DNA of 33,000 bases, taken from the NCBI GenBank assembly GCA_013152755.1, contig JAADFR010000135.1, positions 6,416 to 39,415 on the forward strand, in the 5' to 3' direction. The translations under genes and the position numbers were made by a program. Shown in pieces: positions 1 through 11,684 of the stretch (the first letter of the stretch is position 1; every line of letters begins with the position of its first letter). The notes beneath the pieces are model-generated. The model saw only the letters and a list, made by a program, of their open reading frames with translations, was not told where the DNA came from and did not search any database. This DNA is from Alphaproteobacteria bacterium. Lineage in GTDB: Bacteria; Pseudomonadota; Alphaproteobacteria; Sphingomonadales; Emcibacteraceae.

Positions 1-20
1 GCGGGGGAGCATCCCCCTAT
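1..20 (+). repeat. Partial copy (3' hairpin) of a dispersed structured intergenic element
   Basis: Positions 3-8 (GGGGGA) pair with 12-17 (TCCCCC) around a 3-nt loop. The same GGGGGA/TCCCCC hairpin, preceded by a C and followed by an AT-rich stretch, ends the two complete copies at 9504-9618 and 11071-11171. The window begins inside this copy, so its 5' part cannot be seen. It ends about 46 nt before the first possible start codon of the MATE gene, a placement similar to the other two copies. Confidence 0.5.
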
Positions 21-63
21 ATTAAAAAGATGACTTTTCCCAAACTTCTATCTATGAAGGGCA

Positions 64-4400: not shown

Positions 4401-4560
4401 CGCCGGGGAAGGGGGTATTGGCGGAATCAAAACGATGGGTCAGGCTGGGGTCTTCCTGCCGGGGTAATGATCCGATGGCGGAAAATCCGGCCACAATGAT
4501 CAGGCCAATGACCAGCGCCGTCAGACGGCGATTTCGAAAGAAAAGATTGCTCCACATCAT
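1414..4560 (-). CDS. RND family efflux transporter, inner-membrane permease subunit
   Basis: A 1048-residue protein, typical for AcrB/MexB-type (HAE) pumps: an N-terminal transmembrane helix, a large periplasmic porter domain, a block of helices around residues 330-540, a second periplasmic domain and a final helix block around 870-1030. The central helix carries the proton-relay pattern GLLIDNAIVAVDE with Asp405. The AcrB double Asp is here Asp-Asn, as in several divergent RND branches. It should take substrates from periplasm or membrane and pass them, with the adaptor encoded just upstream, to an outer-membrane channel not encoded in this window. The start ATG overlaps the adaptor stop codon (ATGA), indicating translational coupling. 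A second ATG follows immediately, so the protein begins Met-Met. Substrate unknown. Confidence 0.93.
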   Translation of the reverse strand: MMWSNLFFRNRRLTALVIGLIIVAGFSAIGSLPRQEDPSLTHRFDSANTPFPGASAERVEALVTEKIEAHLSEIDEIKRLRSTSRTGMSTVSIQLEDWVKKSEVSNVWSQVRDKLKDAQQDLPDGAGTPYILDRKSAVFTYMVGLTWQLPTEPQVDILGRFAKEFERIISPLPGTEETDVFGELDEEFIVTIDPDALASVGLTVRDVSDAIARTDSKVPAGQFRGRQHDLVLEVGGELKSEDRIRNIPLKQTADGRFLRVRDVANVRKGYRNPPLSMALLNGQRGIIVGAKVNDTVRVDHWVTRLNSELDKFRKTLPDGIKAEVIFNQDVYSTQRLSTLVGNVFLGAGIIILIMVLMMGWRSAILVATALPLTVLIVMATFHFMDIPLHQMSITGLIIALGLLIDNAIVAVDEYRKCRRQGNDVPAAISKMVKHLFIPLLASTVTTSLTFMPIVLSPGATGEFIGTMGLAVIISLFASLFLSMTIIPALAGYFDRGELLEDKCGILQSGYSNLALKEKYRSALRWCMDHPRKAVLLSITLPLLGFGLSTTLVQQFFPPVDRDQFQIQMTLPPEASIGETARQVAKARAIMARYPEITGDYWVVAETPPAVFYNTFLNQAGLNSFAGGFINTISPQATLDILPRLQRDLMMGLPNAMILAIPFEQGPPFEAPVEVFLYGQDLKILSAKGEEIRAILTQTKNITYTSAKISLSQPKLTFIPDEDAAEAAGLKLNQIAEQLNNALEGRIGGSVLEGNENLPVRVQVGGRDRSSLDYLFNNSLVAAGGSLATGGQHMSGVPLSSLGTLKLVPTYNTVTRRDSQRLNILQAFTIPFSLPSVALTDFQRRLKEANFQLPEGYHMEFGGETEKRSESQGKLFSTVLPLLVIMMGILVLAFNSFTSALIIGGVAFFSMGLAFFAIWLFGFPMGFTGIMGTMGLIGLAINDSIVVLAALRANEEARAANPDVIVDIVVGASRHIISTTLTTIGGFMPLIIWGGGMWPPLATAISGGMVGATLLALIFVPTLYYLRVRRRARKAQAALTASRPLEIAV

Positions 4561-5876
4561 TGGCTATCTCTGGGGCTATCTCTGGGGCTATCTCTGGGGC
4601 TATCTCTGGGGCTATCTCTGGGGCTATCTCTGGAGTTATCTCTGGACAGGCGCACCAATTGTCCGGGCACAAGCCGGTGGATGCCCTGCGTGACCACTCG
4701 GTCGCCGTTCTGTAATGTACCCTGAACATATACCCGCTCACCGTCCGTATAAATTACTTGCAATTCCTGCCGGGACAGGGTGGCATATTCCACCTTGCCC
4801 TCATAGGGTTTCAGGCTATAGACACTCCATAACCCCCGGCGGCTTTCGGCCAATGCGCCGGTGGGGAGCCAGTATCCGGATTGCTCAATATCGCTCAGGA
4901 TGGAAAATTGTACCAGATCGCCGGAGCGCATATTCTTGCCGCCATCCCGAACGTCAAAAATGGCGGTCACGGTGCGGGTGGATGGGTCAACATTCCGCAG
5001 AACAGATCGTAATTTTGCCATGACCTTTTGGCCCTGATAACGGAACATATGAAGCTCGCCCGGGGTCAGAGAAGAGGCCGTTGCCGCCGGAAGCCCCACA
5101 TGAATTTCCAGCTTTTTATCCTCTATGAGGCGCACAACCGGGGTCCCGGCGGCGATGGCGGTGCCTTCATCCAGATAACGGCGGGTAATGCTGCCGTCAA
5201 ACCGTGCCGTCAGGGTGGCCATATCCCGGTCAATTTTCAGGCTTTCCAAAGCCGCTCGTGATTTTGAAACGGCAGCGGTGGTGGCGACTTTTCGGGCCTT
5301 GAGGGCGATCAGGTCAAATTTAACCTGATCAAATTTTTCTTCGGAAATATGTTTCTTTTTTACCAGAACCCGGTAACGGCCAAAGGTTGCCTCGGCCCGG
5401 TCAAGGCGGGCGATGGCCTCCCGGTTCAGGGCCTCTGCCTGAGCAAGGTCGGCGTTGAGTTCCTGTTCTCTGGCATCCAGACGCCGCATATCAAGCCGGG
5501 CCAGAATATCACCCCTATGCACCTGATCCCCCTCATCCACCATAACATCAGCCAGCAGGCCCGCCCGGTCAAAGCCGTGGTCGCTTTCCCGGCCCGCCGT
5601 GATGCTGCCGGAGTATTTCTGTTTTACCTGATAGTGGCTTTCCGTCTGAAGGGTGGTTGTGCTGACCGCGATGGCATGGGTCAGGGCCTCCTGATCCCTG
5701 TTCAGGCTGGCGAGCGCAGATGACTTGATAAAGAACATAGTCCCAGACACGGCAATGATAATGGCGGCCATCAGCATGAACCGCAGGCTGTTACGGCCCC
5801 AGAATGTGGTTGATTTGCCCTTGTTGTTCATGGCTTCAGACGTCTTCTCTGTTTGGTGTATATTATTTTCGGTCAT
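4557..5876 (-). CDS. RND efflux system periplasmic adaptor subunit (membrane fusion protein)
   Basis: A 439-residue HlyD/AcrA-type adaptor. It has a cytosolic N-terminus, one membrane anchor near residues 30-52, a lipoyl-like half motif (residues about 85-120, including VDEGDQVHRGDILARLD), an alpha-helical hairpin rich in Ala/Glu/Arg/Lys (about 120-210), the second lipoyl half and a beta-barrel (VGLPAATASS), then the membrane-proximal domain ending in QGIHRLVPGQLVRLSR. It bridges the permease encoded next in the operon to an outer-membrane factor. The unusual part is the C-terminus, an Arg-Asp-Ser-Pro tail encoded by a 12-bp tandem repeat that reaches almost to the stop codon. Transcription probably starts at the promoter at 5930-5957. 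Confidence 0.9.
   Translation of the reverse strand: MTENNIHQTEKTSEAMNNKGKSTTFWGRNSLRFMLMAAIIIAVSGTMFFIKSSALASLNRDQEALTHAIAVSTTTLQTESHYQVKQKYSGSITAGRESDHGFDRAGLLADVMVDEGDQVHRGDILARLDMRRLDAREQELNADLAQAEALNREAIARLDRAEATFGRYRVLVKKKHISEEKFDQVKFDLIALKARKVATTAAVSKSRAALESLKIDRDMATLTARFDGSITRRYLDEGTAIAAGTPVVRLIEDKKLEIHVGLPAATASSLTPGELHMFRYQGQKVMAKLRSVLRNVDPSTRTVTAIFDVRDGGKNMRSGDLVQFSILSDIEQSGYWLPTGALAESRRGLWSVYSLKPYEGKVEYATLSRQELQVIYTDGERVYVQGTLQNGDRVVTQGIHRLVPGQLVRLSRDNSRDSPRDSPRDSPRDSPRDSPRDSQ
4562..4645 (-). repeat. 12-bp tandem repeat (six exact units plus one variant) encoding a Ser-Pro-Arg-Asp tail
   Basis: On the + strand the unit GGCTATCTCTGG is repeated exactly six times (4562-4633), then once as AGTTATCTCTGG (4634-4645). 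Read on the minus strand each unit gives four residues of the (Ser-Pro-Arg-Asp)n tail of the RND adaptor. Because 12 is a multiple of 3, unit gain or loss keeps the frame and only changes tail length. The array ends one base before the ATGA junction with the permease gene, so the permease ribosome-binding region lies inside it, and no good Shine-Dalgarno sequence is seen there. Confidence 0.95.
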
Positions 5877-9282: not shown

Positions 9283-9503
9283 TATGGCAAAGTTCCTTCT
9301 ATATTTTTTCTGTAAGTTTTTATTTTGTGAACTTATGGCATTTTTTTTGGCTTCGGGAAACAAGAACTTGACTCTTGGGCAGAATCCCCATATTTTCCGC
9401 CCAACTATCACGGATTTGCAGAAGTAATGCGTCCAAGGATGTCCACCAGTCAGCGAAGATTCGCCCACTGGTGCGTTTGTGTTGTGTGATTTAATAAGAA
9501 TAT
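9283..9503. other. Non-coding divergent region with a compound hairpin
   Basis: This stretch separates the start of the outer-membrane protein gene (-) from the structured repeat before ffh. I see no believable gene. It holds an A/T-rich part just upstream of the minus-strand gene (9300-9350, presumably its promoter, no clear -35/-10 assigned) and a compound hairpin at 9444-9473: CACCAGT (9444-9450) pairs with ACTGGTG (9467-9473), and within it GCGAA and TTCGC form a second stem. No T-tract follows on either strand, so it is not an obvious terminator. Confidence 0.45.
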
Positions 9504-9618
9504 CCGAAGACCCAAAAGGTCTGAGGCAAGGCCAAGGGCCGTCCGAGCTAATGCGAGGAGGGGGAGTGCCGCTAAAAATTATTGGGGGCACGGGGGAGTT
9601 ATCCCCCTGAATAAAATA
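9504..9618 (+). repeat. Complete copy A of a dispersed structured intergenic element, upstream of ffh
   Basis: The core 9504-9570 matches 11071-11136 with one indel and a few substitutions, and the 3' end 9587-9618 matches 11139-11171. Predicted stems are AGACC/GGTCT (9508-9512 with 9518-9522), GGCC/GGCC (9530-9533 with 9537-9540), GTGCC/GGCAC around a long loop (about 9566-9591), and GGGGGA/TCCCCC (9592-9597 with 9602-9607). Copy A has about 14-16 extra nt in the third loop. It ends 65 nt before the ffh start codon. The upstream gene runs the other way, so this copy cannot be that gene's terminator. Confidence 0.75.
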
Positions 9619-9672
9619 ATGGTTATGGTGTTGTCTTTAAGAGATACACAAGAACCAAAAAGAGAGAACAAC

Positions 9673-11040
9673 ATGTTTGACAGTTTAAGCGATAAGCTTG
9701 GCGGTATATTTGACAAGTTAAAGGGCCGCGGTGCGCTGAAAGAAGCGGATGTGACCGCCGCCATGCGTGAAGTGCGTATTGCGCTGCTGGAAGCCGATGT
9801 TGCCCTGTCCGTGGTCAAGGACTTTGTCGCCAAGGTTACCGAGCGCGCTATCGGACATGAAGTCATGAAGTCCGTCTCCCCCGGACAACAGGTGGTCAAG
9901 ATCGTTAATGATCATCTGGTGGAAATGCTGGGCAGTGAGACGGTGGGTATCAGCCTTGCGGCGGTGGCGCCGGTGCCGATTCTGATGGTGGGCTTGCAAG
10001 GCTCCGGTAAGACCACGACGGCGGCCAAGATCGCCAAACGGCTTACGGAAAAAGAAAATAAAAAGGTCATGATGGCCTCGCTGGACATCTATCGTCCTGC
10101 GGCCATGGAACAGCTGAAAATTTTAGGCGAGCAGATTGGGGTCGCGACCCTGCCCATCATTGAAGGTCAGATGCCGGTGGATATTGCCCGGCGGGCCATG
10201 ACGGCGGCAAAATTACAGGGCATGGATGTTGTGCTTCTGGATACGGCGGGCCGCCTGCATATTGATCAGACATTGATGGCCGAGGTCATCGGGGTCAAGG
10301 GCGCAACCTCGCCCCATGAAACTCTGCTGGTGGTCGATAGCCTGACCGGGCAGGACGCGGTCAATGTGGCCCAGCAGTTCAGCGATCAGATCGGCATTAC
10401 CGGCGTTGTCCTGACCCGTATGGACGGTGACGGGCGCGGCGGGGCGGCGCTCAGCATGCGGGCCGTGACCGGACAACCCATCAAACTGGTGGGCGTTGGT
10501 GAGAAGCTGGATGATCTGGAAGAATTCCATCCTGAGCGGGTGGCGTCGCGGATTCTGGGCATGGGCGATGTGGTGTCGCTGGTGGAAAAAGCCGCCGAGA
10601 CCATTGAGGCCGAAGACGCCGAAAAAATGATCAAGAAGATGAAGAAGGGCCAGTTCGACTTTGACGATCTGCGCTCTCAGCTTCGTCAGATGAAGAAACT
10701 GGGCGGTATGGCCAGCATATTGGGTATGTTGCCGGGTATCGGCAAAATGCAGAAACAGATGGCCAGTGCCAAAATTGATGACAATCTCCTGAAACGGCAG
10801 GAAGCGATCATCAACAGCATGACGCCCAAGGAACGCACATTCCCGAAAGTCCTGAACGCCTCGCGCAAGAAAAGAATTGCCGCCGGGTCCGGAGTGACGG
10901 TGCAGGATGTCAACAAGCTGATCAAGATGCAAAAGCAGATGGCTGGCATGATGAAGAAAATGGGCAAGATGGGCAAGGGCGGCGGCATGCCCCTCCCCGG
11001 CCAGATGCCCCCCGGAATGGAGAATTTATTGCCGAAATAG
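9673..11040 (+). CDS. ffh: Signal recognition particle protein Ffh (SRP54 GTPase)
   Basis: A 455-residue protein that binds 4.5S RNA and targets nascent membrane proteins to FtsY and SecYEG. The N domain (MFDSLSDKLGGIFDKLKGRG, then EVRIALLEADVA) is followed by the G domain with P-loop GLQGSGKTTTAAKIA, DTAGRLHID, and TRMDGDGRGGAALS, and by the Met-rich M domain (from about residue 295: GMASILGMLPGIGKMQKQM, TPKERTFP, SRKKRIAAGSG) with a Met/Gly/Pro-rich tail. I chose ATG 9673 because it gives the family N-terminus; an in-frame ATG at 9619 would add 18 non-conserved residues. The structured repeat lies 65 nt upstream of this start. No 4.5S RNA gene is visible nearby. Confidence 0.97.
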   Translation: MFDSLSDKLGGIFDKLKGRGALKEADVTAAMREVRIALLEADVALSVVKDFVAKVTERAIGHEVMKSVSPGQQVVKIVNDHLVEMLGSETVGISLAAVAPVPILMVGLQGSGKTTTAAKIAKRLTEKENKKVMMASLDIYRPAAMEQLKILGEQIGVATLPIIEGQMPVDIARRAMTAAKLQGMDVVLLDTAGRLHIDQTLMAEVIGVKGATSPHETLLVVDSLTGQDAVNVAQQFSDQIGITGVVLTRMDGDGRGGAALSMRAVTGQPIKLVGVGEKLDDLEEFHPERVASRILGMGDVVSLVEKAAETIEAEDAEKMIKKMKKGQFDFDDLRSQLRQMKKLGGMASILGMLPGIGKMQKQMASAKIDDNLLKRQEAIINSMTPKERTFPKVLNASRKKRIAAGSGVTVQDVNKLIKMQKQMAGMMKKMGKMGKGGGMPLPGQMPPGMENLLPK

Positions 11041-11070
11041 ATAAACCCTCACCAGATATAAACTCAGTAA

Positions 11071-11171
11071 CCGAAGCCCAAAGGGGCTGAGGCAAGGCCA
11101 AAGGCCGCCCGAGTTAATACGAGGAGGGGGAGTGCCCACGGCACGGGGGAGTTATCCCCCCCAATAGAATA
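11071..11171 (+). repeat. Complete copy B of the dispersed structured element, between ffh and rpsP
   Basis: It begins 30 nt after the ffh stop and its last stem ends 68 nt before the rpsP ATG. Stems are AGCCC/GGGCT (11075-11079 with 11084-11088), GGC-AA-GGCC/GGCC-GCC (11091-11099 with 11103-11109), GTGCC/GGCAC with loop CAC (11132-11144), and GGGGGA/TCCCCC (11145-11150 with 11155-11160). The first stem differs from copy A by a paired A-T to C-G change, so pairing is kept although sequence is not. The third stem also survives despite a large loop-length difference. Confidence 0.75.
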
Positions 11172-11228
11172 AAGAGAATTAAACCAAACATTTGAATATT
11201 TAAAAAACCAAAGAAAGGATTAGCCGGA

Positions 11229-11684
11229 ATGGCTGTTAAAATCAGATTAGCTCGCGGCGGCGCCAAAAAGCGCCCCTATTACCGGATTGTTGTTGCGGAT
11301 GTACGCTCCCCCCGTGATGGCCGCTATATTGAAAAAGTGGGTACTCATAACCCGCTTCTGCCCAAGGATCACGAGGACCGTGTGCGTCTGGTCGAAGACC
11401 GGATTATATACTGGCTGGGTCAGGGTGCGCAACCAACGGACCGTGTGGCCCGCTTTCTGGATGCCGCTGGTCTCATGAAACGGGAAGCCAGCAACAACCC
11501 CAACAAGGGTAAGCCCGGTGCCAAGGCTCTGGAGCGTGTTGAAGAAAAACAGGCCAAGGCTGAAGCTGCTGCAGAAGCCGCAGAAACCGCCAAACAAGAA
11601 GCCGCTGAAGCTGCTGCTGCCCCTGTTGAGGAAGCTCCGGCAGAAGAAGCTGCTGCTGAAGAAACTTCAGAGGAAAAGGCCTAA
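11229..11684 (+). CDS. rpsP: 30S ribosomal protein S16
   Basis: Residues 1-85 are a canonical S16 ([60 protein letters not shown]), a small-subunit assembly protein that binds 16S rRNA. After residue about 95 comes a low-complexity tail of Ala, Glu, Lys and Pro, bringing the protein to 151 residues against 80-90 in E. coli. Such tails are known in alphaproteobacterial S16. It is the first gene of an rpsP-rimM-trmD run, with a good AAGGA at 11215-11219. The structured repeat lies 68 nt upstream of its start. Confidence 0.97.

Follow-up and report, generated by a model that had tools for sequence, protein, structure and literature searches.

In the accessible part of the source on REP and BIME elements, these are described as GTAG- and CGTC-tagged superfamilies of single hairpins of 20-40 bp with an unpaired GTAG or CGTC tag, which lie mostly between convergent or unidirectional genes, near gene 3' ends; in Alphaproteobacteria, according to that source, the CGTC families are the prevailing ones (PMC3733652). 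The excerpts available on longer repeats describe the CcrM-associated intergenic repeats (CIR) of Caulobacter and Brucella, which are about 110 bp long and intergenic, with hairpin arms and a conserved, exposed GANTC, as well as the enterobacterial ERIC or RU-1, a transcribed intergenic repeat of 127 bp that can affect the stability of the upstream message (PMC2229807). The ffh RNA motif (RF01793) is, according to the portion of its description at hand, a single-hairpin RNA (PMC2704228).

The window, by which we mean the whole stretch of 33,000 nucleotides that was analysed, belongs to a draft genome of 2.9 Mb in 191 contigs (G000) and carries two copies of a structured repeat, about 90-130 nt long across its family, in the ffh operon (Table 1). 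Judging from the accessible description of the ffh RNA motif, which lies directly upstream of copy 1, the motif is separate and the repeat is not part of it. The start codon of ffh was inferred from a match that starts at residue 1 in 12 relatives. The fragment at the 5' edge of the window belongs to a third site, the full copy of which lies 5' of the window (G000:C135:6246-6337), separated from the fragment by a run of N.

Table 1. Features of the ffh operon region and of the window edge (window coordinates).
Feature	Position	Strand	Remarks
Repeat copy 1	9504..9618	+	Between ffh RNA motif (RF01793) and ffh; H1 AGACC/GGTCT; H4 loop long
Repeat copy 2	11071..11171	+	30 nt past ffh stop codon, before rpsP; H1 AGCCC/GGGCT
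Third-site fragment	1..30	+	H5-like GCGGGGGAGCATCCCCC; read directly from sequence
ffh RNA motif RF01793	9429..9481	+	52.3 bits vs gathering score 35; copy 1 begins 22 nt later
ffh (signal recognition particle protein)	9673..11040	+	TIGR00959 608 bits, cut-off 473
rpsP (30S ribosomal protein S16)	11229..11684	+	Downstream of copy 2; TIGR00002 105.3 bits, cut-off 45.3

As the preliminary description had proposed, the two copies are homologous and on the same strand (60 nt at 90% and 33 nt at 91% identity), and copy 1, used as a BLAST query of its own genome, retrieves copy 2 with an E value of 1.4e-21. The compensatory change from AGACC/GGTCT to AGCCC/GGGCT that it had pointed out was verified, and a second one, absent from it, is seen in GC-TAAT-GC of copy 1 compared with GT-TAAT-AC of copy 2. 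Its claim that both copies end at a similar distance from a start codon is right for the terminal CCCCC hairpin, which ends 65-66 nt before ATG 9673 (ffh) and ATG 11229 (rpsP), but the homology itself extends to 9619 and 11172; likewise, each copy does form a chain of several hairpins, but five were drawn here (H1-H5) rather than four. The + strand fold of copy 1 was better than those of all 200 shuffles (z -3.64; - strand z -1.95), and that of copy 2 better than 196 of 200 (z -2.23; - strand z -1.50). A promoter-like TTGACT-17-TATTTT at window positions 9368-9396 lies directly before the ffh RNA motif, and similar sequence is present in the flanks of several relatives; in the region around the motif and the repeats, promoter-like sites showed no excess over shuffles.

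The covariance model of the repeat (R1) has 92 positions and several helices. The element begins with H1 (CC-GA-stem-loop-stem-GA-GG, then CAA), H2 (GGCC/GGCC or GCGC/GCGC, among other forms), and H3 (CC-GA-GY-TAAT-RC-GA-GG), after which follows either tail A, composed of GGGGGAG, H4 (GYGCC/GGCRC), and H5 (GGGGGA/TCCCCC), or tail B (AAGCCTAAGCG..CGCCGGCG..TTGAGGC). The tandem GA/GA of H1 is kept in 79 of 85 parsed hairpins, and some H4 loops are GNRA-like (GTGC-GCGA-GCAC, GCGAG-GCGA-CGAGC). Arms have been exchanged at the rpsP site, where G000 has GGCC-AAA-GGCC and both G014 and G011 have GTGCCCAGTATTAAATTATGGGGC, and two copies in G007 carry an all-Watson-Crick CGCGCATAATTGCGCG in place of the tandem-GA H3. 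Copies occur singly, in tandem (as for two copies at the end of contig C107 of G000), or in inverted pairs with their 5' ends facing, and such inverted pairs were found repeatedly outside the genus of G000. A 27-nt hairpin cassette, CTAGCTTTAGTTTACTAAAGCGGAAAA, is identical within H4 of two otherwise diverged G000 copies (L021, L022), a repeat inside a repeat, and is nearly identical in copies from other genomes. Another repeat, AATAAGGGGGGAGCGAGC..GCGAGCGGGGGGAACTCAAGTAGTGA, which runs antisense to the element, lies immediately 5' of several copies (in the upstream flanks of L071, L083, L064, L066, L138, and L147).

The pairing of these helices is real, and outside the genus it is far beyond chance. 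The core pattern could be parsed in 138 of 143 copies, 133 of them distinct; among the distinct copies fitting fixed helix lengths, H1 was fully paired in 74 of 82 (shuffled mean 29.8), H2 in 97 of 99 (55.8), H3 in 102 of 104 (75.9), and H4 in 41 of 51 (22.6). When identical arm pairs were collapsed, the arm-swap test held for H2 (7 of 9 fully paired; shuffled mean 2.0, maximum 6) and was weak for H1 (6 of 13; mean 2.6, maximum 8) and H3 (5 of 7; mean 3.4, maximum 7). Among 16 core sequences, 98.3% of cells were paired compared with 90.6% after shuffling, and 18 cells held double changes compared with 5.9; no slid register came close, and four of five measures were reached by 0 of 500 shuffles, the number of pair types by 11 of 500. 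For 65 distinct rows from outside the genus, in an alignment that was fitted to the model and includes one place (G045) that is also part of it, 98.4% of cells were paired compared with 74.8% after shuffling, with 185 double-change cells compared with 48.4 and double changes in 13 of 15 pairs. The 16-core test and the rows from outside the genus bear out the maintained pairing proposed from the window; since the copies share ancestry, the shuffles in all these comparisons overstate its significance. Covariation between two copies alone is, as a caution, no evidence of a 5'-UTR regulator.

A search with copy 1 matched seven places in G000, and R1, which was built from seven copies, found nine copies there at E below 1e-15, namely the window pair and seven more; a tenth match (E 0.156) was disregarded. 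A local duplication of one stretch inside the ffh operon, with which the spacing of 1.57 kb and the shared orientation of the two copies would agree, has practically no chance of being the explanation, being refuted by the seven further copies in this draft and by more than 200 R1 matches across the 60 genomes searched. R1 matched 20 of these 60, G000 included (E <= 0.01): 13 of the 16 genomes of the genus, with 3 to 40 matches each and none in G005, G008, or G009, and seven beyond the genus, of which three gave just a single weak match; the counts from drafts are probably low, many copies lying near contig ends and one beside a run of N. A core model (R2, 56 positions) was built from 16 cores of equal H1 length, since the 5' arm of H1 had been placed wrongly when 59 cores were aligned with MAFFT. 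With at most 14 candidates scored in any genome, R2 gave matches in at least 139 of the 396 genomes from the order and in at least 15 of the 385 from the class, and at least 11 of these class genomes lie beyond the order. A search of named genomes for an exact 24-base core sequence yielded 33 stretches, which come from MAGs labelled Alphaproteobacteria, Sphingomonadales, or Emcibacter and from one Pseudodesulfovibrio bin (OB3), whose contig (L069) is probably a mis-binned Emcibacter-like contig because its two copies show the spacing of the ffh operon. Neither plasmids and phages (with one copy as the query) nor viral contigs (with the exact pattern) gave a match, and carriage by phage or plasmid was rejected on these results.

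No Rfam family exceeded its gathering threshold on the repeat, in the window or at 12 further loci, which agrees with the preliminary description, where no known family had been recognised. A literature search confined to an open library, exclusive of supplementary files and of print outside that library, found no description of the repeat, and none is present in the accessible parts of PMC12306157, PMC2267715, and PMC1273637. What is absent from Rfam here is a family with strong covariation that R2 matched in at least 35 of 84 sampled genera of one order (best 14 candidates per genome scored).

The repeat is a new family of a known kind, REP/CIR-like yet without a consistent tag of the REP kind or the conserved GANTC of CIR, with CIR compared by description only. 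As far as the available excerpts on REP/BIME go, it resembles these in being dispersed, palindromic, and often arranged in inverted pairs, and within the genus, but not outside it, in lying at gene 3' ends in convergent and unidirectional gaps. Unlike the single REP hairpin of 20-40 bp in the same excerpts, it is about 100 nt long and has several hairpins and tandem G-A pairs. Among the 142 copies with flanks, CGTC is present anywhere in 26 and GTAG in 18. GGAG is a tag variant of REPs; it occurs in 120 of the 142 copies, where it forms part of the G-rich tail rather than a tag at the end. The accessible description of CIR is matched in length (about 110 bp), intergenic location, alphaproteobacterial hosts, and hairpin arms but not in the conserved GANTC, which is found in 15 of 142 repeat copies compared with about 26 sites expected from local density; a CcrM/GANTC link was rejected on this count. 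The stem of ERIC, again going by partial description, consists of its two ends paired, whereas the repeat here is a chain of hairpins.

The genomic position of the repeat was assessed for 142 copies in the genus, which remained of 144 R1 matches in 99 stretches after one duplicate and one mainly coding match were removed; genes were called by coding score, earlier longest-ORF calls having given a like trend but also false genes on rRNA. Forty-five copies lay between convergent genes, 35 between tandem genes in sense, 9 between tandem genes in antisense, and 10 between divergent genes, with 43 lacking a called gene on one side, while the element-free gaps of at least 60 nt in the same stretches were tandem in 60 cases, divergent in 38, and convergent in 7. 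Three copies fell within called genes, two of which were counted as tandem sense and one of which had no assignable class; the copy inside a called gene at the rpsP site of G012 surely reflects a gene start that was extended too far. The ffh site, at which the ffh RNA motif closely precedes the element on the same strand, accounts for seven of the 10 divergent copies. When orthologous sites, recognised by homologous neighbours, were merged and the three in-gene copies omitted, 55 site groups were obtained (convergent 15, tandem sense 13, tandem antisense 5, divergent 3, mixed 1, no class 18), and convergent exceeded divergent by 15:3 compared with 7:38 in the element-free gaps (Fisher p 7e-7), while sense exceeded antisense by only 13:5 (p 0.096). 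Copies in the genus collect at gene 3' ends. Outside the genus this preference and that of orientation are absent, the 53 site rows, unmerged by orthology and taken from high-scoring matches with three in-gene matches and one duplicate stretch excluded, comprising 13 sense, 12 antisense, 8 both, 11 convergent, and 8 divergent cases and one edge; a 3'-end role therefore cannot characterise the whole family. In the single-contig genome G010, three copies lie in antisense between the 23S and 5S rRNA genes of near-identical rrn operons (L156, L157, L158).

These positions bear on the suggestion in the preliminary description that the two copies exert a shared 5'-UTR control. We regard a shared cis-regulatory leader of ffh and rpsP, with autoregulation by Ffh, S16, or another RNA-binding protein, as improbable. 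Although several species carry the repeat at both sites of one operon, and the sites upstream of ffh and rpsP, with 6 loci each, rank high among the shared sites (largest group 8), the repeat is also found downstream of dozens of further genes, in convergent gaps, and within rrn operons, and copy 1 stands behind an already known RNA upstream of ffh. Neither the 142 genus copies, nor the 55 site groups, nor the 53 rows from outside the genus are consistently upstream of one gene class in sense; the genus copies lie preferentially between convergent genes or, in sense, downstream of a gene, and orientation is even outside the genus, which leaves the shared control unsupported. The preliminary description had named random copies in both orientations and without paired substitutions as the finding that would tell against a 5'-UTR regulator; both orientations do occur, but the paired substitutions are kept.

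True ffh was found in 14 of the 16 genus genomes (split over two contigs in G009); none was found in G001, and by our reading the match in G003 is of the related ftsY type only. The nearest relative, G014, has an Ffh that is 99% identical, and the window probably derives from a marine, Emcibacter-like alphaproteobacterium. In the 13 genomes of the genus that were readable at this locus, G000 included, occupancy as judged by eye was as follows. Upstream of ffh, six genomes (G000, G014, G011, G002, G012, and G007) have the repeat family, four (G006, G008, G013, and G010) have a different hairpin repeat (AGCCTTGAGC..GTTTC..GAAAC), and three have neither. Upstream of rpsP, eight genomes carry the family (truncated by a contig end in one of them) and two the other hairpin repeat, G010 retains an H1 remnant, and the remaining two show nothing clear. 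The frequent presence of the different repeat where the family is absent speaks for a leader function, and the fact that both sites are empty in G005 speaks against it. What still argues best for a role in the ffh operon is the recurrent filling of these sites, yet each family also occurs elsewhere. The second structured repeat, AGCCTTGAGCNCGTTTCA-hairpin-GGAAACAAAAC, lies singly or in tandem at the ffh- and rpsP-upstream sites of G006, G008, G013, and G010 (L098, L101, L099, L104; L254, L261, L263, L264). Its GTTTC/GAAAC stem varies with pairing preserved (GTATC/GATAC, GTTCC/GGAAC, GGTTC/GAACC), and by exact or near-exact patterns it is rare elsewhere in the genus. At the ffh and rpsP sites, no target-site duplication was noticed by eye. 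In a comparison of 119 copies, there were 68 for which both a copy at an orthologous site and another in the same genome existed, and 46 of these 68 were closer to a copy elsewhere in their own genome than to the same-site copy of another genome, the two sets being of unequal size; the mean scores (0.496 for same genome and other site, 0.377 for same site and other genome) agree with this count. The sites persist, while their sequences appear to be homogenised or replaced within each genome.

It is likely (with a probability of about 0.62) that the family consists of non-autonomous, dispersed, structured intergenic repeats of Alphaproteobacteria with exchangeable hairpins, which are spread by an enzyme and serve, where transcribed, as a 3'-end or intercistronic RNA barrier. 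The REP/MITE-like reading offered from the window alone has stood up, the copies being dispersed and their hairpins kept by compensatory change. An enzyme acting on hairpin DNA would spread the copies, which would later homogenise within a genome. Where a copy is transcribed, its hairpins may form a barrier behind the upstream RNA and protect or set the 3' end of that RNA, which would be the ffh RNA motif for copy 1 and the ffh message for copy 2. By analogy with REP and ERIC, a chain of hairpins behind a message could hinder 3'-to-5' degradation or set processing between cistrons; the copies would not act as switches for the downstream gene. Y1_Tnp was found in 8 of the 16 genus draft genomes but not in G000 or in the copy-rich G001, G007, and G015, and no core match lay within 12 fetched Y1_Tnp loci; a RAYT/Y1 transposase link was rejected on both results.

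A purely selfish repeat without host function, in which pairing would serve mobility only or be kept by palindrome-correcting template switches, and in which the 3'-end bias would reflect tolerated or targeted insertion, is rather unlikely but deserves serious consideration. Nearly all stem changes replace one Watson-Crick pair by another, and wobble is rare (counts outside the genus: WC 862, GT 11, AC 7, other 7); the scarcity of wobble throughout fits DNA-level hairpin exchange at least as well as RNA; the lack of an orientation preference and the recurrence of inverted pairs outside the genus, as well as the homogenisation within genomes, point the same way. Difficult to reconcile with it are the occupation of the same sites across species with 85-92% Ffh identity and the retention of the tandem G-A mismatches in H1, which have stayed uncorrected. 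In the genus, moreover, GT outnumbers AC in the stems by 15 to 1 (beside 30 other mismatches), as is expected if the + strand works as RNA. Only the + strand contains the tandem G-A pairs and GNRA-like loops. In each of the five copies that were folded, this strand also had the lower energy, the difference being just 0.1 kcal/mol in one of them; two of the five were not distinct from + strand shuffles (27 and 11 of 200 as good). Intrinsic transcription terminators, which the 3'-end location and the strong G+C hairpins might bring to mind, are a very improbable explanation, refuted by the missing T run: no terminator-like site is present on either strand in 9300-11300, and at least 5 T in the 8 bases right after the element were found in 1 of 142 copies (7 of 142 on the antisense side).

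A further reading, unlikely and held tentatively, would see in the family a class-wide, uncatalogued structured RNA repeat made of hairpin cassettes, with a core of H2 and H3 with its tandem G-A pairs, interchangeable first hairpins and tails, and arms swapped with pairing kept, which was co-opted in Emcibacter-like genomes as a 3'-end or intercistronic element. If so, the ffh operon would be its clearest case, its two sites being refilled by either hairpin family in most of the 13 genomes. Since its hairpins can be followed across orthologous and paralogous sites, and in lineages that have a sense-strand bias as well as in others that lack one, the family offers a natural test of whether compensatory change in bacterial repeats marks RNA function or DNA mobility. 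Elsewhere in the window, the 3' end of a minus-strand ORF (4557-5876) carries a 12-bp tandem repeat, GGCTATCTCTGG, which has roughly seven or eight units and occupies positions 4550-4645.
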